Shown: one piece after another, positions 11,772 to 58,052 of the stretch
Layout: each line of letters starts with the position of its first letter
Position numbering within the stretch: the first letter of the stretch is position 1
NCBI RefSeq assembly: GCF_018448905.1
Contig: NZ_RCWA01000006.1
Span: 1-64,000, forward strand
Direction: 5' to 3'
Source of the DNA: Photorhabdus heterorhabditis
Lineage (GTDB): Bacteria; Pseudomonadota; Gammaproteobacteria; Enterobacterales; Enterobacteriaceae
Length of the DNA stretch: 64,000 nucleotides
Notes under the pieces: generated by a model
What the model saw: only the letters and a program-made list of their open reading frames with translations
What the model was told of the DNA's origin: nothing
Databases searched by the model: none
Program-made: the position numbers and the translations under genes

Positions 11772-12212
11772 ATGGATCGAAAAGTAACTTTGCTAGTTAT
11801 AGCCCGATACGGATTGGTGGCATTTGCCGTGTTCATTGCGAGTAGATGTTATTACCAGTCTACAAAGATAAGACGCAGCACAATAGAAATTATCCCGAGT
11901 AATCCGGTGGTCGAATATCGTGATGTACTTAATTCAGAGCAAAGCGTTATCAGGTTATCTGATACCACTCTTAAGAATAAATTTGTTGGTTCAGACGAAG
12001 TTGAACCGACAACCAAAGTGCAGAAAAAATACGATAAAGCTGATGGTGGAAGAGAGAGTTATCACTCGGTACTAAAAAGCCATAATGTGCCGGAACCTGT
12101 AACTTTCAGCTCCAATGATAATTGGGCAAAAGCTGGGGAACCTTACATTGTGCCTCAAATATCTGATCAAGATCGTCAACTCAAGATAAAACGTTATCTT
12201 GCACCTAAGTAA
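11772..12212 (+). CDS. Hypothetical membrane-anchored protein between traK and traB
   Basis: 146 residues with one N-terminal hydrophobic segment (about 5-25, LLVIARYGLVAFAVFIAS) and a polar, probably periplasmic remainder; I do not recognise a family. The position between traK (5 bp) and traB (12 bp) within a tight operon indicates a role in assembling the outer-membrane core. An exact AAAGTAACTTT lies at 11781-11791, covering codons 4-7 (KVTL). Confidence 0.65.
   Translation: MDRKVTLLVIARYGLVAFAVFIASRCYYQSTKIRRSTIEIIPSNPVVEYRDVLNSEQSVIRLSDTTLKNKFVGSDEVEPTTKVQKKYDKADGGRESYHSVLKSHNVPEPVTFSSNDNWAKAGEPYIVPQISDQDRQLKIKRYLAPK
11781..11791. promoter_or_regulatory. Dispersed palindrome copy 1 (AAAGTAACTTT)
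   Basis: Exact AAAGT-A-ACTTT, inside codons 4-7 of the gene between traK and traB, 9 bp after its start codon. Candidate binding site of the ParB-like protein. Confidence 0.6.
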
Positions 12213-12224
12213 TGGAGTTGAGTT

Positions 12225-13601
12225 ATGGATATTAAAAAAACGTGGGCCACGAATAAGTCATTTCGTTACTCAGTTCTGATTATGTTAATTCTGACGCTGA
12301 TATTTGCTATAAGTCAGGCTTTATTCACCAAGCCTGTCAAAAAGCAGACTAAAACAGATAAAAAGGATATGCAGACCAATTTCCTGCTTGATGATTCGCA
12401 AATGAATAAGCTCAGTGGTCAGGAAGCAAAGGCGGTATATGCCGACATTGTAAAACAGAACCGTCTGGACCAGCAGGAAGCTAAACAGGATCGTGAGAAG
12501 GCAGAAAAGCTTCAGGCTGAAACAAAGGCTGAGATGGCAAGTTTGCGCCAGCAGCTCCAGGCAGTCACTCAGCAACTTGCTGATGTGCAGTTGGGTAAGG
12601 CCAACAATGGCAACCGAAGCCTTGATTCACGTAATCCCAGAAATAGTCAGCCTGACACAACTGCTCCGGGTAATGCCCCCTATCAGCTCAATAGAAATGC
12701 CCCGGTAAACGGTGAATTCGCAGCAAACGGTGTTATTCAGCCTCAACGAATGAATCCAATGCGTACTATCACTCAGTCATCAATCAAAACTAGTGGCAAC
12801 AACGGCATCATCGAGGTAACGTCGGTATCTGAACAAATGATTAAAGAAGGTAAAGAGGTTTTCGCCCCGAGCGCAACCCCTGCTTCTAACAGAACTGTAA
12901 AAGGTGATGGCACTACACCGATTGATAGCAAAGCTCGGCATGCAGCGCGTAAAGATGAGATGTTCTTGCCTGCAACGTCAATTATCACTGGTGTGCTGGT
13001 TACCGGCCTTGAAGCCCCAACGAGCATTTCTTCCAAGTCTGAACCTATGCCTGTGACTATGCGCATTAAAAAAGATGTTATTCTGCCTAACAATTTTACG
13101 ATGGATCTTCGCGACTGCAACTTACTCGGTTCTGCGGTTGGTGACCTTGCCTCGCAACGAGCTTATATCCGGGCGACTTCTATTTCATGCGTTAACTCAA
13201 AAGGTAAAGCGTTTGATGTGAAGCTTGAAGCATACGCTGTGAGCGAATTTGATGGTAAAAACGGTATCAAAGGCACTTTGATAAGCCGTAACGGTAATGC
13301 AATTGCTGGTTCCGCAGTAGCTGGTGGACTTTCCGCCCTTGCCGGTAGTCTCAGCCCTAGCCGGGTCTCGTCTCTCAATATCGACCCTAATTCACAAGCT
13401 AAGTATCAAACTCCTAATTTTGATGCTTTAGGCGCTCTGGCTGGCTCTGGAGCAGCAAGCGGTGGCTTGAATCGTCTTGTTGATTACTACACGAGCATCG
13501 CAGAACAACAATGGCCGGTAGTTGAGATTAGCCCAGGTCGTCCGATCACGTTCGTTGTTCAATCCGGCGCAACGATTCCGACAAACCTTGTATCCAGGTA
13601 A
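12225..13601 (+). CDS. traB: TraB, core-complex scaffold (VirB10-like)
   Basis: 458 residues. The cytosolic N-terminus and TM helix (about 15-35) are followed by a coiled-coil region with Q/A/E-rich heptads (about 70-120), a proline/asparagine-rich linker, and the conserved periplasmic domain with FLPATSIITGVLVTGLEAPT (about 248-267). It ends with the glycine-rich segment and FVVQSGATIP typical of TraB C-termini. It spans both membranes and links the inner-membrane ATPases to the TraK/TraV channel. It is translated from ATG 12225 after a GGAGTTGAG ribosome-binding site. Confidence 0.9.
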   Translation: MDIKKTWATNKSFRYSVLIMLILTLIFAISQALFTKPVKKQTKTDKKDMQTNFLLDDSQMNKLSGQEAKAVYADIVKQNRLDQQEAKQDREKAEKLQAETKAEMASLRQQLQAVTQQLADVQLGKANNGNRSLDSRNPRNSQPDTTAPGNAPYQLNRNAPVNGEFAANGVIQPQRMNPMRTITQSSIKTSGNNGIIEVTSVSEQMIKEGKEVFAPSATPASNRTVKGDGTTPIDSKARHAARKDEMFLPATSIITGVLVTGLEAPTSISSKSEPMPVTMRIKKDVILPNNFTMDLRDCNLLGSAVGDLASQRAYIRATSISCVNSKGKAFDVKLEAYAVSEFDGKNGIKGTLISRNGNAIAGSAVAGGLSALAGSLSPSRVSSLNIDPNSQAKYQTPNFDALGALAGSGAASGGLNRLVDYYTSIAEQQWPVVEISPGRPITFVVQSGATIPTNLVSR

Positions 13602-13612
13602 GAGTGGAAACT

Positions 13613-14086
13613 ATGAATAACGAACCTAAATCAGACGAACGGGCAACATCAGAAAATGAGCATGTAGCACCACGTTCGCTAAAGAGAAAGGTAACACTTG
13701 AATTTGAACTTGAAAAGTTACTTTGGGTGGTTGTAATAAGCGGCCTAGTTATGGCCGCAGTATTTTTCGGATATCGTTTTTTCAGTCAGGTAAATTTCAG
13801 TAGTTTTGGTCGTTCGGGGCCAGAAATTGCTGTATTTGATTTTTTAGCAGTCCAGGAAAAATACAAGGCTGATCCAACGGTTTCCGCAAACAGTAATTTT
13901 GATACATACCTCAGAAAACTGATGGCACTTTATCGGGTTCGGGGATATCTCGTAATCGATATAAAATTAACATATACAATTCCACCAAACACGAAAATGG
14001 TTCCATATCTGTCACTGGCTGACCTTGCAGAAGAGTTAAAATCGGAAGGAATTCCTGAAACGATCTACGAGGTTCAGAGCAGGTGA
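13613..14086 (+). CDS. Small membrane protein, possibly TrbI/TrsF-like
   Basis: 157 residues from ATG 13613 (a GTG at 13604 is also in frame). A charged cytosolic N-terminus and one TM helix (about 34-55) are followed by a domain beginning IAVFDFLAVQEKY. The topology and the start of the periplasmic domain (..V.FD......) recall F-plasmid TrbI, which influences pilus retraction, but similarity is weak and the name is tentative. It begins 11 bp after traB, and its stop overlaps the GTG start of the next gene. An exact AAAGTTACTTT lies at 13714-13724 inside the TM coding region (KLLW). Confidence 0.5.
   Translation: MNNEPKSDERATSENEHVAPRSLKRKVTLEFELEKLLWVVVISGLVMAAVFFGYRFFSQVNFSSFGRSGPEIAVFDFLAVQEKYKADPTVSANSNFDTYLRKLMALYRVRGYLVIDIKLTYTIPPNTKMVPYLSLADLAEELKSEGIPETIYEVQSR
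13714..13724. promoter_or_regulatory. Dispersed palindrome copy 2 (AAAGTTACTTT)
   Basis: Exact AAAGT-T-ACTTT, about 100 bp into the coding region of the small TrbI-like gene. Confidence 0.55.
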
Positions 14087-14946
14087 AGAAGCTACTTCCG
14101 TTGCTATTCGCAACGCTTTCAATGTCGCTATGTTCGACCGTTAAGGCAGATGCAAAGGTATTTAATGATACGGATGCAAATGTGTTAATGAGTACAGCAA
14201 AAGATGGTGGAGTGGTAACGCCCAAACTCGACGCATTGCTATCTCAAATGCGGAGATATAAACCGAAAGATGCGATTTTTATTCCTTCAGGTGGATTATT
14301 CGTTTTTGAAGATGAGAAAAAGCAACTTATGGCAGTAACAACTACAGGGCGTTACACAATTAATGGTGGAAGCCTGGTAGATGTCATGAAGCGCACCCAA
14401 CTGTATTCAGTAAATGAATTAAGGGAAAGTTACTTTATTAAACTCAAAGAAGCCCCTTTTCCTCTTTCTACTGTATCTTCAATATCGCTGGGTAACCCAA
14501 AACTCAATCGTCAAGCTGCGATTTTTATTTCGCTGGATTGTGATGGTTGCCAAGATCTCATTAAAAAATTCTATGACAACCGGGAGAAATATCATGTTGA
14601 TGTTGTTTTAATCCCGACGCCTGGAGCAGCAAAAAATAAATTACGTCAACTATGGTGTAGTAAAGAGAAATTTAAAATTACTGATTTTGATGTATTGCAG
14701 TGGTTAACCGGTAATAAAGACGACGTTGAAAAACGATTGCTATCTTTGGAGCAATCACAAGAATGCTCAGTCGAGCCGTTAGTGGCATCCCTGATGTTAG
14801 CCAGCGTGTATAACCTTCAGGGTATACCGTCTGTCGTTCGCGAAGATGGTCTTGCAGGTAATGGTATTCCCCAGGATTTTGACGCTTGGTTAAAACAAAG
14901 CGTTGAGCCCCTTCTGAAAAACCCGTTTGCATCCGATAAAGGTTAA
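14083..14946 (+). CDS. Thioredoxin-fold DsbC-like protein with CDGC motif
   Basis: 287 residues from GTG 14083, which overlaps the preceding stop (GTGA). The signal peptide ends near residue 23 (STVKADAKV). A first domain resembles the DsbC dimerisation arm (FIPSGGLFVFEDEKKQLMAV, GRYTINGG); a second has a thioredoxin-like strand followed by CDGC (SLDCDGCQDLIKK, about residues 160-172). It is a likely periplasmic disulfide isomerase or reductase that helps fold cysteine-rich transfer proteins such as TraV, TraU and TraN. A dsbC-like gene at this place in the operon is usual for IncH-, IncA/C- and SXT-type systems. An exact palindrome copy is embedded at 14426. Confidence 0.7.
   Translation: MKKLLPLLFATLSMSLCSTVKADAKVFNDTDANVLMSTAKDGGVVTPKLDALLSQMRRYKPKDAIFIPSGGLFVFEDEKKQLMAVTTTGRYTINGGSLVDVMKRTQLYSVNELRESYFIKLKEAPFPLSTVSSISLGNPKLNRQAAIFISLDCDGCQDLIKKFYDNREKYHVDVVLIPTPGAAKNKLRQLWCSKEKFKITDFDVLQWLTGNKDDVEKRLLSLEQSQECSVEPLVASLMLASVYNLQGIPSVVREDGLAGNGIPQDFDAWLKQSVEPLLKNPFASDKG
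14426..14436. promoter_or_regulatory. Dispersed palindrome copy 3 (AAAGTTACTTT)
   Basis: Exact AAAGT-T-ACTTT well inside the dsbC-like coding region (codons for ESYFI). Its mid-gene position argues against a simple promoter operator role for every copy. Confidence 0.5.
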
Positions 14947-14949
14947 ATC

Positions 14950-15690
14950 ATGAATTTAAAAAAACTTGCGTTAAGCGTAATTGTTGTTGGTTCGGCTTCT
15001 TATTTGACTGGATGCACAATCGGTAGCTCTGAATCGGAATGCCCCGGCATGGAAAAAGGTGTGATTTGTAAAGGACCACGGGAAGTCATGGAGCTTACGA
15101 ATAACAGTGACGATCTTAGCAATTTGTTTAATAGAGAGAAAAATGAGGGAAAGGGGCAATCGACTGTCAATGACAGTCGGTACCCTGCGGAGATAACGCC
15201 GCCAGGTGGTGTTGTTTATCCTAAATCGAAGGTACTGCACAATCAACCAGTACAATCCACGGCGGTTCAGAGCGCCCCGGCACCACGTTATTATGAGCCT
15301 AATGCAGATATCCCTCGTGCTAAAGACCTCTATTCGATACATAACGGTCAACCGGTGAACCCTACCTTGTCGGCGAATAACATTCAGCAATATCGCTCTC
15401 AGGGCTATAAACAATCCGTAGTCGCACCAGAGCCTCTGGCCGTGCTTCAGCAGGGTAAAGTAATGCGTATTACGTTTGCTCCGTATACAGACGATAACAA
15501 TGCACTGAATTTGCCTGGATACGTGTATGTCAACGTGAAACCTCAGACATGGATCGCCGGAAAAAATGCAACTGACAATCCGGCTCGTATTGTTCCTCTC
15601 GAAGTTCAGGATGCTGCTCGTGACAATATGCAGCAACAGCAGCGTGCTACTCAGGCTGTTAGCTCGAATGGCGTGATCCGTCAGCTGTAA
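14950..15690 (+). CDS. traV: TraV, outer-membrane lipoprotein of the transfer core
   Basis: 246 residues. A lipoprotein signal with lipobox LTGC (Cys at about 22) is followed by the cysteine-containing segment characteristic of TraV (SECPGMEKGVICKGPREV) and a proline/glutamine-rich tail. Anchored in the outer membrane, it stabilises TraB and TraK. It starts 3 bp after the dsbC-like gene and ends 9 bp before traC. Confidence 0.88.
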   Translation: MNLKKLALSVIVVGSASYLTGCTIGSSESECPGMEKGVICKGPREVMELTNNSDDLSNLFNREKNEGKGQSTVNDSRYPAEITPPGGVVYPKSKVLHNQPVQSTAVQSAPAPRYYEPNADIPRAKDLYSIHNGQPVNPTLSANNIQQYRSQGYKQSVVAPEPLAVLQQGKVMRITFAPYTDDNNALNLPGYVYVNVKPQTWIAGKNATDNPARIVPLEVQDAARDNMQQQQRATQAVSSNGVIRQL

Positions 15691-15699
15691 GGAGATAAT

Positions 15700-18408
15700 G
15701 TGACATCTTTTCAGAAGCTTAATGAGGAACTCAAACGTCATAAGTTGGGTTCTTATATACCTATTTTCGACCAGCTGGAAGGTACACCTTACTTTTTGAT
15801 AGACGGCAATAAACTCGGCTTTATGTACATTTGCAACCCTTCTCCTGGAGTTTATGAAAATCAAAAAGATATACTCTCTGAACTGTATAAAATGGATTTT
15901 CCTGTGAATTCAGTCTGTCAGGTTACCTTTTCTGGGTTGCCTGATTTGATCATGCCATTGAGCTCATGGGCATCAAGCCGTGGTGGGCGTATGACTGGCA
16001 AAGACAAAGAAAAAGCGGATCTTCTGAATGCTTACCAGCTTGATTATTTTATCCGTAGTCAGTATGAACCCTTGAAACCTCATTATGATCAGCTGACACT
16101 CCGTGATTTTCAGGTTTGGTTTTCATTCACAATCCCATTACAGAATGCACTACCCACTGAGCTTGAACACCGTCGTATCGACATGTTGTATTCTGAGATA
16201 GTCAGTAAACTGAAAACCATGGGGATGTTCCCTCATCCTGCAAGTGCTGAAAATTGGCTTTATTGCATGGATAAACTTCTCAACCCAGGTAAAAACACCA
16301 GATGGGCTGAAGGCAACATAGAGTTCAATACACTTCGTCATCTAAATGAACAAGTGGATGTTCCAGGTAGGAAATACACTATCGAACATGATTATTTCTC
16401 TTCGACGACGAACAATAGCGATAAGTCTGAAAACCGGTACTTCAAGCAACTATCAGTTCGTAAATTTCCGGAGTATGTCAACTTCGGCTGCATGTATGAA
16501 TTAGTTGTTAACTGGATGCATGGACGAAAAACTGTTTACAACCCATTCATGATAAATTTCACTGTGGTGTTTGCTGATCATAATAAACTCAAAAGTGAAA
16601 ACGTCAGATACAAAGCAATTACCAATAAACAAGCCAGCATACCGATTGTTCTAACTTTCTGTCCTCGCCTACGTGATATGGACAACGATTATATGTCCAT
16701 AACTAAAGAGCTGGAGGACGGCGCAAAACTGCTACTGGGGTACCTGACTTTTACTGTAATGGGTGAAAGTTATGAAGAGGTGTGTACCGGCGCTGAACAG
16801 ATGAAGTCATTTTATCTGGAAAGCCGCGTAAATCTTACTGATGATTCCTACATCATTTTCCCTTCATTAATGTCAATGTTACCAATGTGTAATGATGCGA
16901 AAACGGTACTCGAACTTGACCGGTTTGAAGTCATGACGAACAGTGGAGCTGCCCACCTCACCCCAATCTTTGGACCATGGAAAGGCAACACGCCTAATCC
17001 TGTTATTAACCTTGTCTCACGAGAGGGCCAGCTCATCGGCCTCGACATTTTCAAAACCTCAGCCAGTTATAATGTTGTTGTTGGAGCTACATCCGGTGCG
17101 GGGAAATCATTTTTTTCAGGGTATCTTATCAACAATTATCTCGGTGCTGGACCACGGCTTAATGAGTTAATCCACTACAGAGACGCAATCGAGCATTTTA
17201 AAAGCAATGCTTATAGCGAATTCGATCCGGATGGAGCCCAGGTCTTTGTTGTGGATGTTGGCCGCTCGTACCAAGGTATTGCTGAACAGTATTCCAACAG
17301 CCAGTTTATCGATTTTGGTAAAACACCTACATTCACTCTTAATCCATTTGCCTTTTTGACTGATATCACAGAGGATGCAAGTGAAATTGCAGAAGCATTT
17401 ACATCCAATGGTTACCACGACACGCAAGAGGAAGCCAGTGGAGACACGGCTAAGGATCGTGTTGCACAAACCATTATGGTGCTCAATCAATTGAAAATGA
17501 TGGCATCCGAGTCTGGACAGATTGATGACTATCAACAATCCATAATGCTTAGCCTGATCTCTGAAGAATACAATGAAGCCAAAAAGGAAGGTCGAACTGG
17601 CTCTGTAACAAATTTTGCTAAACGATGCAGTAACTTTCATGACCAACGCATTAAAGATATAGGCGCTCAATTAGGTGCGTGGTCAGATGGCGGCATTTAT
17701 GGTCATCGCTTTACAGATAAGCTGCCCCCGATAAATTTTGACAGTCGTTTCATCGTGTTGGAGTTAGAAGAGCTTAAAGGTACCCCTCACCTGCAAACTG
17801 TTGTTCTGATGTCTATCATCCAGGCAGCTCAACACGCTATGTTCGTCAAACGTGATGGTCGTCGACGTCTCTTCCTGTTAGATGAAGCATGGGAATACAT
17901 CAGGCCGGACAACGCTAACAGCAATGGTAATCATGCCAATAATCATTTTTTCTCTTCTTTCCTTGAAGCCGCCTGGAGACGCTTCAGGAAAACAAACTGC
18001 GCAGGTATTTGTATAACCCAGAGTTTTGAGGATTACTACACATCCGCCGTGGGACGTGCTCTTACTAACAACAGCCCGTGGAAAATTATTCTGAAGCAGG
18101 AAAAAGAGGCAATAGAGGCGATGAAAAAGAACAAATATTTTTCTACGTCTAATGCTGAATACGAACGTATGAAGAATATCCGGACCGAAAAAGGTGTATT
18201 CTCAGAGCTACTGGTTCGTTTTGAGAACGTTCAGGAAATTTGTCGGTTGTATGTTGATAGGAAGATGGAGTTATGTTTTACAACTGACTCTCGAGACCGT
18301 AACCGCTTATGGGACATACAGGCAAAGTTTAATTGTACCTATGGAGAAGCCATAGATCGGCTTTATGAGGAAGAGATGCGCGAAAAATTCGGAATCAGAG
18401 TAGCCTGA
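15700..18408 (+). CDS. traC: TraC, VirB4-family conjugation ATPase
   Basis: 902 residues from GTG 15700 after an AAGGAGAT ribosome-binding site. It has Walker A GATSGAGKSF at about 463-472 and Walker B RRLFLLDEAW at about 721-730, with the F-type TraC N-terminal domain (about 20-300). It powers pilus assembly and substrate transfer from the cytosolic face of the inner membrane. It is the last gene of the A-L-E-K-B-V-C run, and a strong terminator follows. A near-match of the palindrome (GCAGTAACTTT) lies inside near 17630. Confidence 0.93.
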   Translation: MTSFQKLNEELKRHKLGSYIPIFDQLEGTPYFLIDGNKLGFMYICNPSPGVYENQKDILSELYKMDFPVNSVCQVTFSGLPDLIMPLSSWASSRGGRMTGKDKEKADLLNAYQLDYFIRSQYEPLKPHYDQLTLRDFQVWFSFTIPLQNALPTELEHRRIDMLYSEIVSKLKTMGMFPHPASAENWLYCMDKLLNPGKNTRWAEGNIEFNTLRHLNEQVDVPGRKYTIEHDYFSSTTNNSDKSENRYFKQLSVRKFPEYVNFGCMYELVVNWMHGRKTVYNPFMINFTVVFADHNKLKSENVRYKAITNKQASIPIVLTFCPRLRDMDNDYMSITKELEDGAKLLLGYLTFTVMGESYEEVCTGAEQMKSFYLESRVNLTDDSYIIFPSLMSMLPMCNDAKTVLELDRFEVMTNSGAAHLTPIFGPWKGNTPNPVINLVSREGQLIGLDIFKTSASYNVVVGATSGAGKSFFSGYLINNYLGAGPRLNELIHYRDAIEHFKSNAYSEFDPDGAQVFVVDVGRSYQGIAEQYSNSQFIDFGKTPTFTLNPFAFLTDITEDASEIAEAFTSNGYHDTQEEASGDTAKDRVAQTIMVLNQLKMMASESGQIDDYQQSIMLSLISEEYNEAKKEGRTGSVTNFAKRCSNFHDQRIKDIGAQLGAWSDGGIYGHRFTDKLPPINFDSRFIVLELEELKGTPHLQTVVLMSIIQAAQHAMFVKRDGRRRLFLLDEAWEYIRPDNANSNGNHANNHFFSSFLEAAWRRFRKTNCAGICITQSFEDYYTSAVGRALTNNSPWKIILKQEKEAIEAMKKNKYFSTSNAEYERMKNIRTEKGVFSELLVRFENVQEICRLYVDRKMELCFTTDSRDRNRLWDIQAKFNCTYGEAIDRLYEEEMREKFGIRVA

Positions 18409-18416
18409 TTGTTACA

Positions 18417-18444
18417 CGAGTGCGGCCTGCCGCGCTCGTTTTCT
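18417..18444 (+). terminator. Terminator between traC and the reversed operon
   Basis: GAGTGCGGC and GCCGCGCTC form a 9-bp GC-rich stem (one G-T pair) with a 2-nt spacer, followed by TTTTCT. It separates the rightward tra operon from the leftward three-gene operon. Confidence 0.88.
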
Positions 18445-18470
18445 CCACGGTCTTTCCCGGCAGGTTAATC

Positions 18471-18878
18471 TTAAAAATTATCATTGGTAGCGGCAACGCG
18501 AACTGGTTCAGACATGTAGGGTTTAAGTTGAATCGTAACAGTGGCACTATTCTCGTTGTTATCCACTTTTAGTGGAGTTTTCCCAGGCAATGACATAGTC
18601 ACAACTGCCGGGCCTGAGATTGCAAATCCATTTTCCGCAGACGGTGGAACTGTCACAATCCGGACAGCAACATTTTCATACCGGTAATACGAAATGCCAA
18701 ATGTTGAACCAGCTTCTGTATTAGCAACATCCACTACTACTGGTGATAAACCAATGACCTCATTGGTTAAAACATTTTTTACTGAGGCGCCCGGCGGGTC
18801 TGTCACAATCTTGTAGGGAAATGCGCAAACAGGTTGAGACAACATCAACGAAGTTAAGAACATAAGTTTTTTCATCAA
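18471..18878 (-). CDS. Exported PEGA-like small protein
   Basis: 135 residues. The signal peptide ends at about residue 19 (LSQPVCAFPY). The mature part starts YKIVTDPPGASVKNVLTNE, which resembles a PEGA-type beta-rich module (DPPGA.V); the rest is beta-rich without known motifs. It is last in a leftward three-gene operon, with its start overlapping the upstream stop. No function is known; periplasmic or surface location is likely. Confidence 0.65.
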   Translation of the reverse strand: MMKKLMFLTSLMLSQPVCAFPYKIVTDPPGASVKNVLTNEVIGLSPVVVDVANTEAGSTFGISYYRYENVAVRIVTVPPSAENGFAISGPAVVTMSLPGKTPLKVDNNENSATVTIQLKPYMSEPVRVAATNDNF

Positions 18879-19396
18879 ACACCTCGCCGATCAAAATTAA
18901 GCAAGTAATTGATTGATTTATATTTCTTTTTTTCTTCTGGTTGACCAGGGAATATATAATCTAAACTGAAATATAAGGGGAGGGTGACTGATGTTTTTGG
19001 CTTGTTAGTTATTGAGCGGAATGGGTTTGAAATTAGTATCATCTGGTCTTCATTTGTGTAGCACAGACCAATTAGGCCGATTGTTGGCGCTTTGAAGGTC
19101 ATGATAGTACCTGGCGGTATAAGTTGAGTTTTACGTGTCGAATAGCTGCATCTGCTGCCAGCAAATGTGACATTGCTAAGCTCTATGAAACTTTTTGTGC
19201 CATTTCCAGCCAAAAGAAACATGTCAGTCCCGGCACTTTCCACAAAAAAAGCAACTTTGCCATTCGTATTGGCAGTAGTTTGAGCTTCTAGGGATAAGTA
19301 ATAATCAATCGACGGAACAGTATCGTTTATACGGTCAATAGAGGTACATCCGGTTAGTAGCAGAGAGATTGATACCAGAAATTTATTAGTCATCAT
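18875..19396 (-). CDS. Exported lipoprotein, unknown
   Basis: 173 residues with a lipoprotein signal and lipobox LLTGC (Cys at about 17). The beta-rich mature part has two further cysteines in SRCSYSTRKTQ and GLCYTNED, possibly a disulfide. No family is recognised. Its start overlaps the stop of the 19386 gene and its end overlaps the next gene, so the three genes are translationally coupled. As a lipoprotein in a tra island it might be a surface or exclusion-type protein; that is conjecture. Confidence 0.65.
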   Translation of the reverse strand: MMTNKFLVSISLLLTGCTSIDRINDTVPSIDYYLSLEAQTTANTNGKVAFFVESAGTDMFLLAGNGTKSFIELSNVTFAGSRCSYSTRKTQLIPPGTIMTFKAPTIGLIGLCYTNEDQMILISNPFRSITNKPKTSVTLPLYFSLDYIFPGQPEEKKKYKSINYLLNFDRRGV

Positions 19397-50093: not shown

Positions 50094-53000
50094 ATGAGAA
50101 AATCCGGAGTAAGCCTTGCTCTGTTGTTTTCGCTATTTGCACCGCCCAAGAACCTGCATGCTGAAGCAATCATGATTTCAGGTAAGCTCGAAGCTGAGTT
50201 ACCCAAAATAAATTTTGCTAAAGATTCAGGTGATCTCGTTGCTTACGTGAACTCAACCACCATAACTGCTTCAGGGGACGGAACGGCTTGTAACGTCACA
50301 GTGGATAATCGCGCCACATCTACACTCGATAACCTAGTCTGTTTTTTTGAGTGGTTGCCTAACGCATACGGCATGACTGCTAACGGTTTCATACTATCAG
50401 GTATCCCCAACCAGGTCGGCGAAATGAAACTGCCGTACTTGGTTTCCTATTATTCAGGGCGTGAACGACAGAAAGTCGAGATTATACGCTCTGAATATAC
50501 TGTCTCTACGGTTGCGCCTGTTAAACCGGTAATTACAGGTATGAAATCTTCAATCAACGGGCAGGTTCTTGAAGGATTTATCGTCGACTCATACATTAAA
50601 GATGAAGCCCTCAGAAACATCACTGTACAGATTCAACCACGTGATTTCATTCAGTATATTTCAGTTGGTAATGGTTCATCATGTGAGGTCCCGGTTGGTG
50701 GGGATAACTGCACGATAACGGTCGGAAGTGTACGGGTGAGTGACTCTGATGAATTGCAGGGTTCACGGAACATTACTGTTACAGTCAATTCAAAAAATAA
50801 CTATTTCGTTCCACCGGAGACGCATAATCTTACTTTGCGTTGGGATTACCGCCCCCCGGTTGTTGACCATACATTATGGAATTTCACTGATGATGCCAGA
50901 ACCATCGATGTTGGTGGTCAGAGCATTTACACTGGGCCGAAAACTGTTGCTGTTGCTGTCAAGGTTCCCCAACAGGGCACAACAGGGGAATGGTGGCTCC
51001 CAACCTCTATGACACTAACACTAATCCCTGATGGTGTTTTCAAACCAGTAACAAAAGTCACTCTTGATGATGGTACCGTTCTTGATTTTAATCAGACGTG
51101 GACGACGCCGACCAAACGTACTTTGCTGCCCGTAACCGGTCCGCAGTTGGTGAGGGATGAATATCTTTATATATTCGATGTCCAGGATCTGATTAGTGGA
51201 TCTTACAGCGCAAGCTTTGCGGTTGAAAACAAAAGCGCAAACAAGTCTGTTTATGATGAGACTAATTCCAAGCTTATGCTCAGTGACTCACCGTCTCTTC
51301 TTGTTATTAAAGATGGGCAGGGATTGGGCAAGCGAGCTCCTGTTTATTTTCTGAATGAGGTCATCGTAGCGGCGTTCCAGGGGCAAGAAGGTATTGCGGA
51401 TATCAAGTCTGCAACGATTGACAACAAAGTTGTGAAATTAATGCCGACCAGCCATAAAGGGATTTATTACCTGCCTGCCGGTGACGACCTCGCACTTAAT
51501 GTAGATCATCAACTGACTCTGGTAGCAGAAAATATTTACGGTAAACAAACAACTCTGGAAACTACCTTTGAATATATGCCCATGGGCTTTACCCTTAAGA
51601 ATCTGGAAAAGGGAACAAAATTGTATTCACGAGTTCGCCAATACACGGATTTGATGTCTCAGACCTCTGGGACAAACTGCACTTTGTTTACAACCAAGGA
51701 AAATGCTGATGAATATCTGAAATGGGTGGGTAATAACCCAAATATCATTGCTTGTTACCCACAGTGGAACAATGTCCCAGATGGACTTGAGTTTTACTTT
51801 AAAGGGCGTACCCCTGGCTTGAGTGGATTCTTCAATGTAACCGGTGAAAACCTTCTGGATTACTACGTTTATATGACGAATGCCAGAGGTTCCAGGGCTG
51901 TGGCGGTGCGTAACCGTTTCAAGCTGAATGCAGAACTCCCATATGACCCGGTTATTACATACAAAAAGAGTAAGACTATTGCAGGCATTAATCCTAATAC
52001 GGCGCTCGTGTACACATCTGGGGGGGAAGCTGCTCGTATCGTTGCGAAGGTTGTTCCGTCAGACATTAACATAACGACCAAACAAAACGGTGAGGAACCG
52101 GTAAAAACAGCGTACAAAAATAGATCATCAAGTATTGATGCGACAAGTTTTGTCCAGCGTCTGAAATTTGGTCCATCTTCGTTGTGGACCAAGAATGTTA
52201 TGGATATTGATGTTGCCTATGCAAAAGACCCGGCGCTTCATACCCAAGACATACTGAATGTCTATACCGTTCCGGACTTTAACATCATGACATATCTTAA
52301 AGTTGATGATAAGAAAACCGCCACCGGACTTAAGCTACCGCTGACGATCAATATTGGCCGCTATAAGAATGACTGTCGCTGTACCAAGTTCGTTCGTTCC
52401 GATATGGGTGAGTGGGATGTCACGGTATATGCACAAAAGAGCATCTACGCGATAGATCATGAGACAGGCCGTTACAAGACGACGTATGAGCGTACCGCCC
52501 TGACTAAGCCATTGCCTGTAAATGACGAGGGTATTGTAGCTACCAAAATTGATATTAAAGGACTGGACCTTGGTAATCATCGTCTGATAGCCGTGGCTCA
52601 GGTTCGCTCACCATTTGAAGACTTCGTAATGAAACGTGAAAGTAGTGCTGTCAGTATTCGCGTTTACAACGGCAAAGAGCTGGAAGGCGGTCTCTCCAAG
52701 GGTCAAATCATAGGAAGAATCCCGCTAAGTACAGTGGTTTCATTTAAAACTAAGTCAACAGTTGATGCTGATGCCTTATCCCCAACGGAGTGGCAAACGT
52801 CCGAAAACAACGGTACCACTTGGACTAAGCTGACCGAGATGGATGGAAGGCGCAGTGTAACCATCAAGAAGACTACGGTTGGAAAATGGCTGTACCGTGC
52901 AAAAATGAAGAATAAGTTTACCAACCTTGAATCGTTGACCGATGTCTTGACAGTGGTCACATACAAGGAGCCCAAAGTATCAATTAAGGTTGTACCGACA

Positions 53001-54380
53001 CTGGAAGGCAATGATATTCCGGTACAACTGATGGATAACGGCGAGCCCGTGCCTGAAGGGACGGCAGAAGTGGTCTGGTCTGAGGATAAGGAAAACTGGT
53101 CCGAAGGCAGCACATCGTACAACATCACTGCATCGGATGAACTGCCCCAGTACATCTATGCCCGAATGCGCTATTCGGATTCTGATGGATTGACCGGTGA
53201 ACAAGCTTGGAAGGAAACCTCTGCAAGAGTCACTATAACTAAACCAAAACGTCTGTCAGTTAAGGCAACGGGTAGTTCGATGGTTGAAGTGGGGCAGCAG
53301 GTAAACCTGACGGGCTCCTATATCAACCCGAACGAAAAGGTTGATGATAATGAAGAAGTTAGTGAAGAGTGGAAAACGCCAGACGGCCAGATCATCAAAG
53401 GGTCGGCGCTGAATCTAACATTGACTGAAGATATGCTCGACAAGCAGGGTTACGCCGCGTTTGAGTACAGTGCTTGGCTGACAAAACATAAAGAAAAAAC
53501 CATTTCGACAAGACGTGTATCTGTTAAATCTTGGGTATACAAATTCCCAGAGGTGAAAATGAACACGCGTCTTCGTTATGCAATGGCCCCGTCAACCCTG
53601 ACTGTTTCACTGTCGGGAGTTGATGATGAATACCCGGGAGTGACGTATACCCGTGAATGGATTTACAACAAAGAGGAACTGAAGCTCATTAAAGATGACG
53701 GCGATAAGAAGGAATTCTCCATATTGAACTCAGGAAAATATACTTTATTTGTTGTCTTTAAAGATAATCGTGGCAACGAAAGTCGTCTTGAAAATACATT
53801 TATCGTGGATGATCAAACACCGATGAAGGTAGAAATGACGCCTAAGTTCTCTAACAAGTATATGCGAGCCCCACTTGACGTAACTTTACGCTCAAATATC
53901 AAATTGTCTCACTCAGCTGATGTGGTCGATACGGTGACGTACAAGCTGAACGGACAAGCAATTGATGGAGGTAGAAATTACTGGGCTCAATTCTTACCTG
54001 GTTTGGCAGAAGGCAAATACCAGCTGGTTATTGAGGTGGTAAGTAAGTTTGGTCAGCGCGGCACTGCGAACGTTGATTTTGACGTAGTCAAAAATGCTCC
54101 TCCCAAGTGCATATTAGATTATACGGAAACCAATCTGAGCTGGAATTTTACTAATAAATGTACGGATTCCGATGGTAAAATGCGCAAATATGAATGGTAC
54201 ATTAACGACGAGCAGAGAAATGTATTCGGCAATTCAGCAACACTGTCGAAGAACCTCAATAAGGGTAAACAGGTCGTAAAAGTGATTGCTTATGATGACA
54301 GTAACGATTCTGATACGCAAACCGTGACGGTCTATGATCCTAATGATAGCCAAATGGCGCCGCCTACAGTTGCAAACTAA
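50094..54380 (+). CDS. Giant exported Ig-like protein, 1428 residues
   Basis: The signal peptide ends at about residue 24 (KNLHAEAIM). The remainder is a string of beta-sandwich modules with features such as an NASGDGTACNVTV-like opening, VDDQTPMKVEMTPKF, and a final PKD/Ig-like module CILDYTETNLSWNFTNKC...VIAYDDSNDSDTQTVTVYD. Bacterial Ig-like proteins of similar size on IncH plasmids are secreted and aid conjugation. No membrane anchor or autotransporter domain is visible, so secretion may use the transfer apparatus or another system. A rho-independent terminator directly follows. It shares domain style but not clear sequence identity with the 22396 protein. Confidence 0.75.
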   Translation: MRKSGVSLALLFSLFAPPKNLHAEAIMISGKLEAELPKINFAKDSGDLVAYVNSTTITASGDGTACNVTVDNRATSTLDNLVCFFEWLPNAYGMTANGFILSGIPNQVGEMKLPYLVSYYSGRERQKVEIIRSEYTVSTVAPVKPVITGMKSSINGQVLEGFIVDSYIKDEALRNITVQIQPRDFIQYISVGNGSSCEVPVGGDNCTITVGSVRVSDSDELQGSRNITVTVNSKNNYFVPPETHNLTLRWDYRPPVVDHTLWNFTDDARTIDVGGQSIYTGPKTVAVAVKVPQQGTTGEWWLPTSMTLTLIPDGVFKPVTKVTLDDGTVLDFNQTWTTPTKRTLLPVTGPQLVRDEYLYIFDVQDLISGSYSASFAVENKSANKSVYDETNSKLMLSDSPSLLVIKDGQGLGKRAPVYFLNEVIVAAFQGQEGIADIKSATIDNKVVKLMPTSHKGIYYLPAGDDLALNVDHQLTLVAENIYGKQTTLETTFEYMPMGFTLKNLEKGTKLYSRVRQYTDLMSQTSGTNCTLFTTKENADEYLKWVGNNPNIIACYPQWNNVPDGLEFYFKGRTPGLSGFFNVTGENLLDYYVYMTNARGSRAVAVRNRFKLNAELPYDPVITYKKSKTIAGINPNTALVYTSGGEAARIVAKVVPSDINITTKQNGEEPVKTAYKNRSSSIDATSFVQRLKFGPSSLWTKNVMDIDVAYAKDPALHTQDILNVYTVPDFNIMTYLKVDDKKTATGLKLPLTINIGRYKNDCRCTKFVRSDMGEWDVTVYAQKSIYAIDHETGRYKTTYERTALTKPLPVNDEGIVATKIDIKGLDLGNHRLIAVAQVRSPFEDFVMKRESSAVSIRVYNGKELEGGLSKGQIIGRIPLSTVVSFKTKSTVDADALSPTEWQTSENNGTTWTKLTEMDGRRSVTIKKTTVGKWLYRAKMKNKFTNLESLTDVLTVVTYKEPKVSIKVVPTLEGNDIPVQLMDNGEPVPEGTAEVVWSEDKENWSEGSTSYNITASDELPQYIYARMRYSDSDGLTGEQAWKETSARVTITKPKRLSVKATGSSMVEVGQQVNLTGSYINPNEKVDDNEEVSEEWKTPDGQIIKGSALNLTLTEDMLDKQGYAAFEYSAWLTKHKEKTISTRRVSVKSWVYKFPEVKMNTRLRYAMAPSTLTVSLSGVDDEYPGVTYTREWIYNKEELKLIKDDGDKKEFSILNSGKYTLFVVFKDNRGNESRLENTFIVDDQTPMKVEMTPKFSNKYMRAPLDVTLRSNIKLSHSADVVDTVTYKLNGQAIDGGRNYWAQFLPGLAEGKYQLVIEVVSKFGQRGTANVDFDVVKNAPPKCILDYTETNLSWNFTNKCTDSDGKMRKYEWYINDEQRNVFGNSATLSKNLNKGKQVVKVIAYDDSNDSDTQTVTVYDPNDSQMAPPTVAN

Positions 54381-54393
54381 AGCACAATAAATA

Positions 54394-54424
54394 AAAACCC
54401 GGCTGTGTGGCCGGGTTTTTTCGT
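54394..54424 (+). terminator. Rho-independent terminator of the Ig-like gene
   Basis: AACCCGGC and GCCGGGTT pair around TGTGTG, followed by TTTTTTCG. It lies 15 bp after the stop. Confidence 0.92.
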
Positions 54425-54482
54425 TTTATATTTTACCCTCTCCGCCCTAGTCGCCTTGTAATGCGCCGTATACCCCTTTAAA

Positions 54483-54493
54483 AAAGTAACTTT
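54483..54493. promoter_or_regulatory. Dispersed palindrome copy 10 (AAAGTAACTTT)
   Basis: Exact AAAGT-A-ACTTT in the 457-bp region between the Ig-like gene and the S26 peptidase operon. Confidence 0.65.
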
Positions 54494-54610
54494 AGTGCGA
54501 GGGATTATTTCAATCGCCCCCACGGATAAAATAATTTTCCTTGTTTAGCGAACCGACCATGTCATCACCAATCTGGCATTAATGCCGTTTCGCAGCTAGA
54601 ACCGACTTAC

Positions 54611-54621
54611 AAAGTTACTTT
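54611..54621. promoter_or_regulatory. Dispersed palindrome copy 11 (AAAGTTACTTT)
   Basis: Exact AAAGT-T-ACTTT, 128 bp after copy 10 and about 220 bp upstream of the S26 peptidase. The only intergenic region with two copies. Confidence 0.65.
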
Positions 54622-54837
54622 AACAATTACCTCAGTTCGATTGGTCATTATTTCCCATCCCAAAACCAGCCTGCAATGTCTTGAAAATACATCTCTAAAT
54701 GGACCTGAAATAGGCTTTGAACGTTGGATAATTGGGACAGTAAAGGATAAACCCATATACGGTGAAATGGCTAAGCGACGTCACAACTGTTCAATAAAAG
54801 CCTGCTCTTAGGCAATCCAATAATTGGCTAAAAGATT

Positions 54838-55359
54838 ATGAAAATGCTGAAAATAATTATTCCTGAGACGCGAGGGTTTCTGGCTTTGGACTGGTATGTT
54901 CCAGCCAATCTTCTTCTCGTGGTAATCGTCCTTTTCATGTTTTTTTCTCGTTTTACCTTTGGTTATGGACTGCTTTACGGTTGCCTCCCGGTTGATATGT
55001 ACATGATTGATCATAAAGACAAAAGCTTTCATACGGGAGAAATGATTGCTTTTAACATGCCCAAGACCGTTAGGTTTATCAATGAAGGGGAGAAAGTTAT
55101 CAAAATTGTAGCTGGTATCGGTGGTGAAAAAATAAAGGTCACCATGGACGGTGTTTATAACGGGGATAAATTTTTTAAGGTCAATGCCCAAAGGATATCC
55201 AGCAAGTACAAAATAAGCCGATCCACTATCGAAAAAGAACTAACCATTCCTGAAGGTAAGGTTTTTCTTGTCGGGCAAACAGACCATTCATGGGATTCCC
55301 GTTTTTGGGGGCCTGTAAGAATCGATACAGTTATCGGGAAAACATATGCGCTCTACTAA
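54838..55359 (+). CDS. S26-family conjugative peptidase (TraF of RP4 / TrhP type)
   Basis: 173 residues. One TM segment at about 20-42 (VPANLLLVVIVLFMFFS). The S26 core has EGEKVIKIVAGIGGEKI at about 83-99, whose Lys corresponds to the general base, and near its end GQTDHSWDSRFWGPV, the conserved SxDSR box. At the nucleophile position, where the family has S-L/M-P, this protein has Cys in GCLPVDMYM. It would process, and perhaps cyclise, the pilin at 9081. First gene of the operon with trbC/traW, traU and traN, as in R27 (trhP-W-U-N). Its end overlaps the next gene by 14 bp. Confidence 0.78.
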   Translation: MKMLKIIIPETRGFLALDWYVPANLLLVVIVLFMFFSRFTFGYGLLYGCLPVDMYMIDHKDKSFHTGEMIAFNMPKTVRFINEGEKVIKIVAGIGGEKIKVTMDGVYNGDKFFKVNAQRISSKYKISRSTIEKELTIPEGKVFLVGQTDHSWDSRFWGPVRIDTVIGKTYALY

Positions 55360-56857
55360 AATTAATTCAACGTCATTGTTGCTTTTGACATTTTCTGCAA
55401 TTTGTTCCAATGCAATATCGGCTCCTTCCGTCCAGCAATATCAGCATGATGCTGAGATTATTGCAAGGCAAGCTAAGGCGTTGGATGGTGATGTCTCTTT
55501 TGCTAACAATAATCCAGAATCAACGCTCCCCGGTAATGTACCCGCTCCCAACATCAACAAGTACATTCAGCAGGCTGAGAAACTTAAAACTAGTGGTGTC
55601 TTAGATAACAAGGTGAACAGTGGCTATGTTCCGGGTATGCATGTTGACAGCGTTCAGGCAGTCATAGACCAGACTCGGTTAATACATGAGTCACAGCAGA
55701 TGGGGCAGATCGTAGAGGAAATAAGCCGCCGGCGAGACGAAATTCAAGTTGATGCAAAAGCAAATGAGCTGGCAGAACAGACAGTAGAGAGCAAGGCGAA
55801 GGTTATGCGTTCCCAGGCAACAAACATTGAAAAAATGTTCGGTAGCTACGGAATTACTGCATCCGGCTGGGAAAGAAAAATGGACGACAATAGGAGCAAG
55901 GAGCTCTCTACAGGCATCGGTCTGACTATATTCGCCTCTTTCAGTATGCCGGATTACGTGTTCACCGATGTTCTTCGTACCGCATCAGAGCACAATGCTC
56001 GTGTGGTTCTCAACGGGCTTAAAAAGGGTACCACCACGCTCGTAGAGACGCAGGCAGCAATAAAGCAGTACATTGTCAAAGCCAAACTTAAAAATGAACC
56101 CTTAATTACCCTCGACCCAGAGAGTTTTTCGCAATATCAGGTAACTCAAGTCCCGACGATGATTTCGAGAACGGAAAACCGGTTTGCCCGAATCGCTGGT
56201 ACCTTCAATGTGGACTACTTCGAACGTGAGATGAAAAGCTACCCGAATCGGGATATTTTCCCAGTTGCAGGCACAACATATTTGGTAGAAGAAAAAAGCA
56301 TTATCAAAGAGCTTGAGGAGAGGGGAGAGAAATACGACTGGGAAAGCGCTAAGAAACGCGCTCTGGGCGACACTTGGAAAAATCAATGGATGATTAATCT
56401 GCCTCCAGCATATGAGTATAAAGAATGGCTTATCGACCCAACAATCCGGGTTACACAAGATGTGAAAGACAGACAAGGCAGGACGTTGGCATATGCCGGT
56501 GAAATGATTAACCCTCTCACTCGGTTCCCGCAAAATCTTACCATGTTGATTTTTGATCCGATGAGGCCCGAGCAAGTTGAATGGGCTGAGAAAAAATACA
56601 AATCAGTTCTCGGTTCCGGGAAAGTACTGCCTATGTTCACCCGAATTGACATCACTAACGGGTGGGATGACCTGAACGATCTTCGTGAAAAATTCAATGG
56701 GAAAGTTTTTAAGGTTAACGAACAAATAATTAGGCGTTTTCATGTTAAGGCAACCCCCGTCGTAATCAGCGTTGATCACGATAAATTCCGTGTGGTGCAG
56801 TTTAGTGAAGCGGAAATAAAAGGGACTGGTACGCCTGCATCAGCACAGGAGAAATAA
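55346..56857 (+). CDS. TrbC-TraW fusion (TrhW-like) assembly protein
   Basis: 503 residues. The signal peptide ends at about 25 (SNAISAPSV). The central TrbC domain has GLTIFASFSMPDYVFTDVL (about 190-210) and QVTQVPTMI. The C-terminal TraW domain has PTIRVTQDVKDRQGRTLAYA and LLIFDPMRPEQVEWA (about 350-430) and ends with a TrbC-like KVFKVNEQIIRRFHVKATPVV. TrbC and TraW are separate in F but fused in IncH and related systems. Acts in the periplasm in pilus assembly and mating-pair stabilisation. Confidence 0.85.
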   Translation: MRSTKINSTSLLLLTFSAICSNAISAPSVQQYQHDAEIIARQAKALDGDVSFANNNPESTLPGNVPAPNINKYIQQAEKLKTSGVLDNKVNSGYVPGMHVDSVQAVIDQTRLIHESQQMGQIVEEISRRRDEIQVDAKANELAEQTVESKAKVMRSQATNIEKMFGSYGITASGWERKMDDNRSKELSTGIGLTIFASFSMPDYVFTDVLRTASEHNARVVLNGLKKGTTTLVETQAAIKQYIVKAKLKNEPLITLDPESFSQYQVTQVPTMISRTENRFARIAGTFNVDYFEREMKSYPNRDIFPVAGTTYLVEEKSIIKELEERGEKYDWESAKKRALGDTWKNQWMINLPPAYEYKEWLIDPTIRVTQDVKDRQGRTLAYAGEMINPLTRFPQNLTMLIFDPMRPEQVEWAEKKYKSVLGSGKVLPMFTRIDITNGWDDLNDLREKFNGKVFKVNEQIIRRFHVKATPVVISVDHDKFRVVQFSEAEIKGTGTPASAQEK

Positions 56858-56859
56858 GA

Positions 56860-56994
56860 ATGAAAGCGGGATTCATTATGGGCGCACTATTTGCAACCTG
56901 GCTGACGTTAAATTATCCAACCGAAGTGCGTGATGCTTTTAATAAAGTAACTACAGTGCTTTCGGATGGTTATTCAGCTATTAACAATAAGTGA
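56860..56994 (+). CDS. Small 44-residue membrane protein
   Basis: ATG 56860 after GGAGAAATAAG and 2 bp from the stop of trbC/traW. 44 residues with an N-terminal hydrophobic segment (about 3-17, AGFIMGALFATWLTL) and a polar tail. The tight fit between trbC/traW and traU (8 bp) supports it as real. Function unknown. A near palindrome (AAAGTAACTAC) lies in its coding region at 56944. Confidence 0.6.
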   Translation: MKAGFIMGALFATWLTLNYPTEVRDAFNKVTTVLSDGYSAINNK

Positions 56995-57002
56995 GTCGCT
57001 AA

Positions 57003-58052
57003 GTGGAAAAGTTTAAAAAGTTACTTTTAGAAACGCTAATGACCCTGATGTTGCTTTTCTCATTGCCTGCAATGACAATGGCCGCTGATAACGGCGTCGC
57101 AAATGGTGCAATGTGTCAGAGCGCCGGAGTATGGAAGGGACTCATTAAAAATATCTGCTGGAGCTGTATTTTCCCGATGAGGATCATGGGCATTGGCGCG
57201 GCTCCGGAAGGGGCCGCTCCATCTCGCCCTGTCTGTACGTGTACTGACCAGAATGGTGTACCTGAAGTGGGCTGGCAGCTGAGCTTTTTCCAGCCTGTCA
57301 AAATTGTCGAAGTCGTTAAGGCCCCTTGGTGTAGCCCATTTCTTGAAGGAACCATGTTGCAAAAGTCTCAGTTTGACCTTGGCAAAAACAATACTAATCA
57401 GCCAATGACAGCCAACGAAGCAGGCTTCTATGATGTGCATCTTTGGGAATTCCCGATTATGACCATGCTTAAGTTACTCATCATTGGGGAATGCACTGCC
57501 GAACCTTATGTTGATGCCAGCCTAACATATATCAGTGAAGTTGATCCTATGTGGGAAAGTGATCTTCTTACGCTGATCCTAAACCCTGAAGCTGCTGTAT
57601 TTGCTAACCCGATTGCTTCTATGGTTTGTGCGGCGGACTGCGTCAAAGTAACCGCAGGAAATGATAATCTGTCAGCGCACTTCTGTGCCGGTTGCGATGG
57701 GAATATGTATCCCCTGACCGGACATGTTTACGCAAATGATGACGCAGTACGGGCTAGTTCTCTGGTTACCCAACGAATGATTACCAAACTCCACCGGCAG
57801 GGCATGCTCATGCGAACCATGGGCGCAGACGCGATGTGTGAAAAGTCATGGGAATACTTTACGCCGCGTTCGCAATACCGGCTTTCAATGCTGTTTCCGA
57901 CTCCTGAAGCTGAGGGGCCGGGTTGCTGCCACCGGCTTGGTGATTCAGTCCATGCTTGGTCAACCCTTAAAGGTGGGCGTAAGCGTATCGGGGTAGATAG
58001 CTATGTCTACATGTTATGGCGCTATAACGATTGTTGTGTTCGTTTCCTCTGA
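57003..58052 (+). CDS. traU: TraU, pilus assembly protein
   Basis: 349 residues from GTG 57003. Signal peptide to about residue 27. Cysteine-rich mature protein with the TraU features MCQSAGVWKGLIKNICWSCI, FPMRIMG, then CSPFLEG and CTAEPYVDASLTYISEVDP, and CCHRLGDS and RYNDCC near the end. It is needed for DNA transfer rather than pilus synthesis in F and depends on disulfide bonds, which explains the Dsb proteins in the region. An exact palindrome covers codons 5-9. Confidence 0.9.
   Translation: MEKFKKLLLETLMTLMLLFSLPAMTMAADNGVANGAMCQSAGVWKGLIKNICWSCIFPMRIMGIGAAPEGAAPSRPVCTCTDQNGVPEVGWQLSFFQPVKIVEVVKAPWCSPFLEGTMLQKSQFDLGKNNTNQPMTANEAGFYDVHLWEFPIMTMLKLLIIGECTAEPYVDASLTYISEVDPMWESDLLTLILNPEAAVFANPIASMVCAADCVKVTAGNDNLSAHFCAGCDGNMYPLTGHVYANDDAVRASSLVTQRMITKLHRQGMLMRTMGADAMCEKSWEYFTPRSQYRLSMLFPTPEAEGPGCCHRLGDSVHAWSTLKGGRKRIGVDSYVYMLWRYNDCCVRFL
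57017..57027. promoter_or_regulatory. Dispersed palindrome copy 12 (AAAGTTACTTT)
   Basis: Exact AAAGT-T-ACTTT 14 bp after the traU start codon (KLLL). Confidence 0.6.

Follow-up and report, generated by a model that had tools for sequence, protein, structure and literature searches.

AAAGTWACTTT, a dispersed palindrome of IncHI-type plasmid backbones and putative recognition site of an orphan ParB-like protein

We analyzed the first 64,000 bases (hereafter the window) of contig NZ_RCWA01000006.1 (C6; 180,946 bp) from a draft genome of Photorhabdus heterorhabditis (5.05 Mb in 226 contigs), in which an 11-bp palindrome, AAAGTWACTTT, is scattered through a region of IncHI-type transfer genes. 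The copies belong to a site set that, within the 20 plasmid records we counted, is specific to one plasmid family, conserved in position and selected at the DNA level. The palindrome is very probably a set of binding sites for a plasmid-encoded protein. We propose that AAAGTWACTTT is the putative recognition site of a dimeric DNA-binding protein of the IncHI family. Judged from sequence, the most likely reader and our leading candidate is an orphan member of the ParB/KorB superfamily, here called paralogue A, an assignment whose likelihood we would put a little short of even. Among the major vehicles of multidrug resistance are IncHI1, IncHI2 and related Klebsiella plasmids, with R27 as the IncHI1 archetype, and a dense, strictly conserved lattice of sites on such plasmids would point to an unrecognized global protein that they encode.

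The palindrome in the window and the host genome

The original prediction, made from the letters of the window, had reported 12 exact copies of the word, and all 12 are present where it placed them. It had also expected less than one copy by chance, which agrees with a mean of 0.09 and a maximum of 1 in 100 dinucleotide shuffles. The word is indeed an inverted repeat around a single A or T, the center base being A or T in 12 of 12 copies. Among all palindromes with 5-base arms and a one-base center, the arm AAAGT occurred 12 times in the window and the runner-up twice. With up to one mismatch allowed there were 24 matches, 2.28 being expected, and 12 of these were one-mismatch copies. Nine of those 12 had been listed, one of them at 40190, which should read 40180; the copies at 4649, 5139 and 31801 had been overlooked. 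The flanks of the 12 exact copies look unrelated to each other. The absence of exact copies from the first 9 kb and beyond 57.1 kb was correctly described, and it extends across the whole of contig C6.

The complete genome contains 18 exact copies, namely the 12 in the window and six singles on six other contigs. Six copies in the ~4.87 Mb outside the window is near the chance level scaled from the window shuffles, so that the comparison with the host suggested by the original prediction found the word not to be equally dense in the remaining genome. Across 394 genomes of the order, we counted 0–25 copies of AAAGTWACTTT per genome and 0–28 of the reversed word. A host regulon was rejected because the rest-of-genome count is near chance and the 394 genomes lie within the reversed-word range.

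Distribution among plasmids

We counted exact copies over the whole length of 20 plasmid records chosen from search listings. Eleven related records carried 41–75 copies each (R27, 42; R478, 47; CP082418, 47; CP130474, 41; OW969840, 75; AP021951, 74; CP141633, 72; CP072946, 45; AP028318, 41; CP084493, 60; CP139091, 49), and the nine others carried 0–5. These nine were IncC pAR060302 (0), IncC NC_019153 and OR041628 (0 each), a Comamonas (0), a Pseudomonas (0) and a Providencia plasmid (1), Citrobacter CP057148 (5), F (0) and R64 (1). The reversed word, our control, was present 0–3 times in each of the 20 records. It had been supposed that this element has its own set; since related plasmids carry the same word at 41–75 copies each, that supposition was abandoned.

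Four of the 11 carriers, OW969840, AP021951, CP141633 and CP139091, are not IncHI by replicon typing. AP021951 and CP139091 share an IncHI-type backbone, while OW969840 and CP141633 are tied to the family by the ParB-like gene, its neighbors and MOBH/MPF_F typing. Among the five copies in Citrobacter CP057148, four fall in one fragment of ~6 kb and the fifth lies elsewhere. Proteins of this fragment match R27 at 57–100%, five of seven at 87% or more, and therefore copies travel with IncHI DNA. The fragment (~169.6–175.6 kb) is IncHI1-like, with mobI and a gene resembling trhR, and its plasmid is typed as non-mobilizable; the fragment may hold an IncHI-type transfer origin.

We also scanned for palindromes with arms of 4–6 bases and spacers of 0–10. 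AAAGTWACTTT showed the largest excess in R27, R478, AP021951, CP072946 (first 400 kb) and C6. The same scan, unprompted, recovered TTTCACATGTGAAA 13 times in IncC pAR060302. This word is the published IncC parS and its recovery is a positive control for the scan; it occurs 13 times in each of two further IncC records as well. Two other palindromes came to our attention. AP021951 has a second abundant one, CCCCCG with a 4-base spacer, in 23 copies. The Comamonas record NZ_CP101744.1 has a dispersed palindrome of its own, TTTCGCATGCGAAA, with eight copies in the first 140 kb (46770, 46806, 50395, 51551, 58581, 109439, 133205 and 137945); two of them flank the Comamonas ParB-like gene, two lie a few kilobases upstream, and the word looks like a variant of IncC parS.

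Positional conservation and anatomy of the set

To compare genic sites between plasmids we aligned reciprocal-best genes by their proteins, ignored the center base (leaving ten fixed positions) and counted unaligned sites as misses. Of 14 genic R27 sites, 7 were exact at the same codon in AP021951, a distant relative from Klebsiella, compared with 554 of 60,870 background 11-mers (0.9%; p = 1.8e-11). Where the peptide was identical, all five sites were exact, compared with 487 of 5,777 background words (8.4%). Exactness at the same codon thus goes beyond peptide identity and therefore indicates selection on the DNA itself. R27 sites were exact in 7 of 9 cases in CP139091 (background 1.3%) and in 16 of 21 in R478 (background 11.8%). 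For the window, 3 of 4 codon-aligned sites were exact in R27 (background 1.6%) and 3 of 4 in R478 (background 1.9%). The check on positional conservation that had been suggested found sites kept at the same codons in R27, R478 and AP021951 above background. By gene context, each of the 12 window sites is matched by a site at the corresponding place in at least one relative. Codon alignment was available for four; the other eight match by neighborhood only, and at one site per ~4 kb some of these may be coincidence.

Copies occur in genes as well as between them, as had been noted for the window. In R27, 20 of 42 sites are wholly intergenic, although only 19.6% of the plasmid is (p = 4e-5); 21 are wholly genic and one lies at an edge. 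The 21 genic sites fall 12, 4 and 5 in the three reading frames, and six of them lie within 150 nt of a start, where 3.35 were expected. The intergenic sites of R27 showed no promoter-side preference. Counting genic and intergenic sites together, the density on R27 and R478 is about one per 4–6 kb. Spacing is slightly even in R27 (coefficient of variation 0.73 vs 0.97, P = 0.02) and not even in R478 or AP021951.

The center is A or T in 47 of 54 cases in R478 and 42 of 46 in R27. Counted by half-site, the next outer position is A in 63 of 84 (R27), 60 of 94 (R478) and 63 of 86 (CP072946), and a purine in 144 of 148 (AP021951) and 94 of 98 (CP139091); the 24 half-sites of C6 showed no clear flank preference. 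Flank preference thus varies by clade. One-mismatch copies were mostly changed at an inner position in R27, R478 and CP072946, and in AP021951 and CP139091, too, inner positions have the largest number of them. No 6-mer co-motif was prominent alike in the four plasmids tried. An IncC-type parS was rejected as a co-motif, words within two mismatches of it numbering only 0–4 in each of six sequences. One such word, TTTCACATGTGGAC, lies at window positions 20879–20892, two mismatches off the IncC parS core and a short distance upstream of the exact copy at 20907 and of the ParB-like gene; it may be there by chance, because four such words occur in 181 kb.

That the copies are short, and half of them inside genes, might suggest a chance origin, mobility as a short repeat, or an effect of codons or composition. 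We give this kind of explanation virtually no credence and rejected it: the shuffles, the reversed-word control, the unrelated flanks, the occurrence in all three frames and the conservation beyond the peptide all speak against it.

Nature of the element

Labeling the part of the window that holds the copies a transfer region was correct, since by protein homology ~9–70 kb of the contig is an IncHI-type backbone. Blocks of genes in this segment follow the gene order of R27 and R478 and contain IncHI-type transfer genes by protein comparison, with Pfam matches to TraK, TraE, TraU, TraN, TraF, TrbC, TraI_2 and similar families. The other 110 kb of C6 is unrelated to IncHI, apart from a distant second TraD and three more weak matches. 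Because a Rep_3-type (IncHI) replication initiator had no match at E ≤ 0.01 in the draft genome, we call the element IncHI-type and not an IncHI plasmid. No tRNA was found on contig C6, and its ends have no overlap of 20 bases or more. Between ~70 and 181 kb, the large open reading frames (ORFs) include a TonB receptor and a gene of non-ribosomal peptide synthetase type, and the minus strand holds a further run of large ORFs. ParA, DnaB, TcpQ and TraD-like genes in the same part look like those of a second, distantly related transfer system.

Paralogue A as candidate reader

R27 and R478 encode three ParB-like paralogues (A, B and C) beside the main ParA/ParB. Paralogue A was found in 12 of 12 carriers, this element included (C6, R27, R478, CP082418, CP130474, OW969840, AP021951, CP141633, AP028318, CP084493, CP139091 and CP072946). 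It matched HTH_ParB above cut-off, as no other protein of this genome did; HTH_ParB was matched at E ≤ 0.01 in seven of the eight rows of the paralogue A profile, and the profile matched chains of known structure from ParB, Spo0J and Noc (E 4e-6 to 4e-4). Among the backbone ORFs scanned, which were part of the core ORFs, paralogue A alone was recognized as a sequence-specific DNA-binder. Sites lie just upstream of its gene in C6 and AP021951. At the positions that we take to be the ParB-CTPase motifs, G-x-x-R-x-x-A is kept in seven of eight rows, the Comamonas row ending in G, and the third motif retains its GN in C6, R27, R478, AP028318 and Comamonas. IncC NC_019153 and OR041628, with zero copies of the word, have a distant (32%) homologue of paralogue A. 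Viral contigs scanned with the profile yielded no relative.

In R27, paralogue A lies at coordinate 45191 and corresponds to R0042, to judge from its rank among the annotated genes that separate repHIA (R0036) from the transposase R0046. R0042, a "partition protein", gave signals of 6132 (25°C) and 2278 (37°C); its signal is the highest within the portion of the table examined, and it was induced in an R27 htdA mutant (PMC7366339).

We infer that a protein binds the sites, that this protein is perhaps paralogue A, that it may use cytidine triphosphate (CTP) or slide, and that it may control backbone genes. By analogy with KorB and IncC ParB, paralogue A would load at each site and, once loaded, would act across the neighboring kilobases. 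A site every 4–6 kb would bring the whole backbone within reach, as in the KorB analogy, and the outcome would be a backbone that is repressed or organized, perhaps with segregation aided.

Several results weigh against paralogue A or against a strictly maintained site set. The strongest point against A is that its predicted recognition helix, placed by alignment to ParB, differs among C6, R27, R478 and AP021951 while the core site is constant. We keep the assignment as a working hypothesis because this helix is not conserved among the carriers. In AP021951, CP084493 and CP139091 (Klebsiella/Raoultella) the third-motif GN reads GA, and nucleotide binding by paralogue A is therefore doubtful in these three. 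The nearest site in R27 and R478 is ~1.95 kb upstream of gene A, and in the same plasmids site pairs lie ~100 and ~225 bp upstream of paralogue B. The co-occurrence of paralogue A with the sites is common to many other core genes, and its predicted structure is poor (mean predicted local distance difference test score, pLDDT, 42.7) and lends no support. The codon comparison was weaker for two pairs, R478 to AP021951 (5 of 12 exact, background 6.0%) and C6 to AP021951 (2 of 4, background 1.0%). Only 3 of 10 R27 genic sites were exact in C6, and the C6 backbone at 57–70 kb has no exact copy, though the homologous genes of R27, R478 and AP021951 have several. The dispersed IncC sites, moreover, are bound by a ParA-partnered ParB, as seen in electrophoretic mobility shift assays (EMSA), and not by the IncC homologue of A, whereas the IncHI candidate is an orphan without an adjacent parA.

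Other possible readers

The upstream sites just mentioned raise the possibility that paralogue B (R27 92336, R478 216013, AP021951 116136) is the reader and is autoregulated from them, the copies in C6 being kept by paralogue A or being decaying relics. Site pairs or clusters are found upstream of paralogue B in R27, R478, CP072946 and AP021951, and its recognition helix keeps an H..R pattern between R27 and AP021951. However, this genome yielded no paralogue B, and neither did CP084493 or CP139091, which have 60 and 49 sites and one ParB-like place each, at paralogue A; not found in these three carriers, it was rejected as a universal reader. Furthermore, the three of four codon-aligned window sites that are still exact, against a background of 1.6–1.9%, mean that the window copies have not simply decayed. 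We therefore consider a reader of this kind improbable. Equally improbable as reader, in our estimation, is the ParB that is paired with ParA in the main partition module (R27 23081–24088). It has the direct analogy of IncC in its favor, in which the ParB encoded by parAB-053 recognizes the dispersed sites (PMC10954446), an analogy that also counts against paralogue A, and ParA/ParB homologues are present in R478, AP021951, CP072946 and CP139091, with ParB identity of 45–83%. On the other hand, this ParB had no match on C6 or in this genome (E ≤ 1), an empty result that alone shows little, yet 12 sites are kept here; and in R27 and R478 the 3 kb around the parA start are free of sites, whereas IncC has one in the parA promoter. 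It was rejected as a universal reader because it was not found in this genome. Paralogue C, not found in AP021951 or C6 with paralogue A as query, was rejected in the same role; unlike A, it resembles Noc by NCBIfam, far below the cut-off.

Alternatively, the sites could serve the plasmid-wide HtdA-TrhR/TrhY circuit and be bound directly by one of its regulators. HtdA is encoded by C6, R27, R478, AP021951 and CP139091, and in R27, mutation of htdA lifts repression from 139 of 181 expressed genes at 25°C (PMC7366339). The genes named there as HtdA-independent are those for transposition, tet, cit, muc and parAB (PMC7366339). We mapped seven 5' ends of such genes, taking cit as the tcu genes, with three of the seven in one transposon; six were at least 3 kb from a site, compared with 14% of random positions. 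Most of the named genes, however, sit on acquired segments that are site-free anyway. Half of the R27 sites are genic and the intergenic ones lack a promoter-side preference, which would be odd for an activator, and HtdA matches no Pfam family and lacks a convincing relative in the PDB. In CP139091, which has 49 sites, no TrhR or TrhY homologue was found; this is a weak point, in that homologues of the Tra1 genes, TrhR and TrhY included, were not found there and may have been deleted recently. Overall, we think direct binding by a regulator of this circuit quite unlikely. A somewhat more credible alternative, if still an unlikely one, is that an unrelated core protein of uncharacterized fold, or a nucleoid-type organizer in a MatP- or Noc-like role, binds the sites and that gene control is secondary. 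Several core ORFs without a Pfam match share the site distribution, and the genic sites, the sites in convergent gaps and the slightly even R27 spacing would all fit an architectural role. Weighing on the other side are the uneven spacing in R478 and AP021951 and the recognition of paralogue A alone as a sequence-specific DNA-binder among the backbone ORFs scanned.

The plasmid-wide site lattice and the plasmid-wide HtdA regulon may be aspects of a single system. In its fullest form, which we offer as speculation and regard as unlikely, an orphan ParB-like clamp, apart from both IncHI partition systems, would load at a lattice of ~40–75 sites, execute the temperature- and HtdA-dependent repression of most R27 genes and mark the backbone as distinct from acquired DNA. 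With the site lattice, the question of how most R27 genes are jointly controlled becomes directly testable, and AAAGTWACTTT offers a simple sequence mark for telling IncHI backbone from acquired DNA.

Comparison with known systems

The operator of IncP KorB differs in sequence and length from AAAGTWACTTT, and KorB operators are fewer than the sites of the IncHI set. For KorB, binding and CTP use are proven, whereas for the IncHI candidate both are putative. IncP plasmid RK2 has 12 palindromic 13-bp operators read by KorB, a ParB-family protein that acts as a global regulator and in partition (PMC10954446), and KorB is a CTP-binding, sliding clamp that can silence from afar (PMC11790492). In IncC and IncA plasmids, dispersed parS sites are recognized by ParB, a KorB-domain protein encoded in the parAB-053 operon; 14 are scattered in R55, and two R55 sites and one copy in SGI1 were bound by ParB in gel shifts (PMC10954446). 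The IncC and IncHI sets both consist of numerous near-identical palindromes dispersed over a large MOBH/MPF_F plasmid, with one copy close to the gene of a parB-like regulator. IncC sites are mostly intergenic with some genic. The two sets differ in that the IncC parS core, TTTCACATGTGAAA, is an even palindrome of unrelated sequence and is present in 13–14 copies, compared with 41–75 in the IncHI family. The orphan proteins Noc, VirB and BisD have the ParB fold and roles beyond segregation (PMC12704722), and from these systems the IncHI set differs in sites, host and function.

The original prediction of a KorB-like dispersed operator set is the best-supported reading, the sites being family-specific, position-conserved, selected as DNA and backbone-wide, with IncP KorB and IncC ParB as precedents; what did not survive is the idea that the set is the element's own. 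The kind of system is known from IncP and IncC. What is new is a different site, about 3–6 times the copies of the KorB and IncC sets and a candidate reader without a ParA partner. Our search of the open literature returned no earlier description of the IncHI set; the R27 and R478 sequence papers lay outside that search, so an earlier mention is possible.

Features of the window

Table 1. Exact and selected one-mismatch copies of AAAGTWACTTT and associated features, in window coordinates.
Feature	Position	Strand	Context
Exact site	11781..11791		5' end of htdO-like ORF 11772-12212 (+9); R478 site at +6 of its htdO
Exact site	13714..13724		Within ORF 13604-14086 (+110); R27 homologue has a site at +102
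Exact site	14426..14436		Within htdT-like ORF 14083-14946 (+343); same aligned codon exact in AP021951, not in R27/R478
Exact site	20907..20917		2 bp 5' of the ATG of ParB-like ORF 20920; AP021951 sites also just upstream
Exact site	22283..22293		Between ParB-like and Ig-like genes; sites upstream of Ig-like homologue in R27, R478, AP021951
Exact site	29222..29232		Within traD (+2019, near 3' end); same codon exact in R27/R478, not in AP021951
Exact site	35793..35803		Upstream of ORF 35920 (trhR-like, inferred from gene order); R27/R478 sites in same intergenic stretch
Exact site	38640..38650		5' end of trhH-like ORF 38602; same codon exact in R27/R478; AP021951 trhH region has two sites nearby, neither at the aligned codon
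Exact site	46146..46156		Just past stop of ORF 45380-46144; R478 site spans stop of homologue
Exact site	54483..54493		rsp/trhF intergenic stretch; R27 and R478 have one site each there
Exact site	54611..54621		Second copy in rsp/trhF intergenic stretch
Exact site	57017..57027		Codon 5 of trhU-like ORF 57003; same codon exact in R27, R478, AP021951
One-mismatch copy	19248..19258		Inner-position change; possibly a weaker site
One-mismatch copy	38010..38020		Inner-position change; possibly a weaker site
Orphan ParB-like protein, paralogue A	20920..22122	+	Pfam HTH_ParB above cut-off; PHROG ParB-like; leading candidate reader
HtdA-like gene	48755..49216	+	Homologous to R27 17061-17513, annotated transfer repressor; rival candidate for plasmid-wide control
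IncHI-type transfer backbone	9012..63315		Protein homology to R27, R478, AP021951, CP072946; continues to ~69.7 kb of contig

Apart from these features, the window contains zinc-ribbon-like coding remnants at 47825–48460, recognized by eye from the sequence and possibly derived from a TnpB-type gene.

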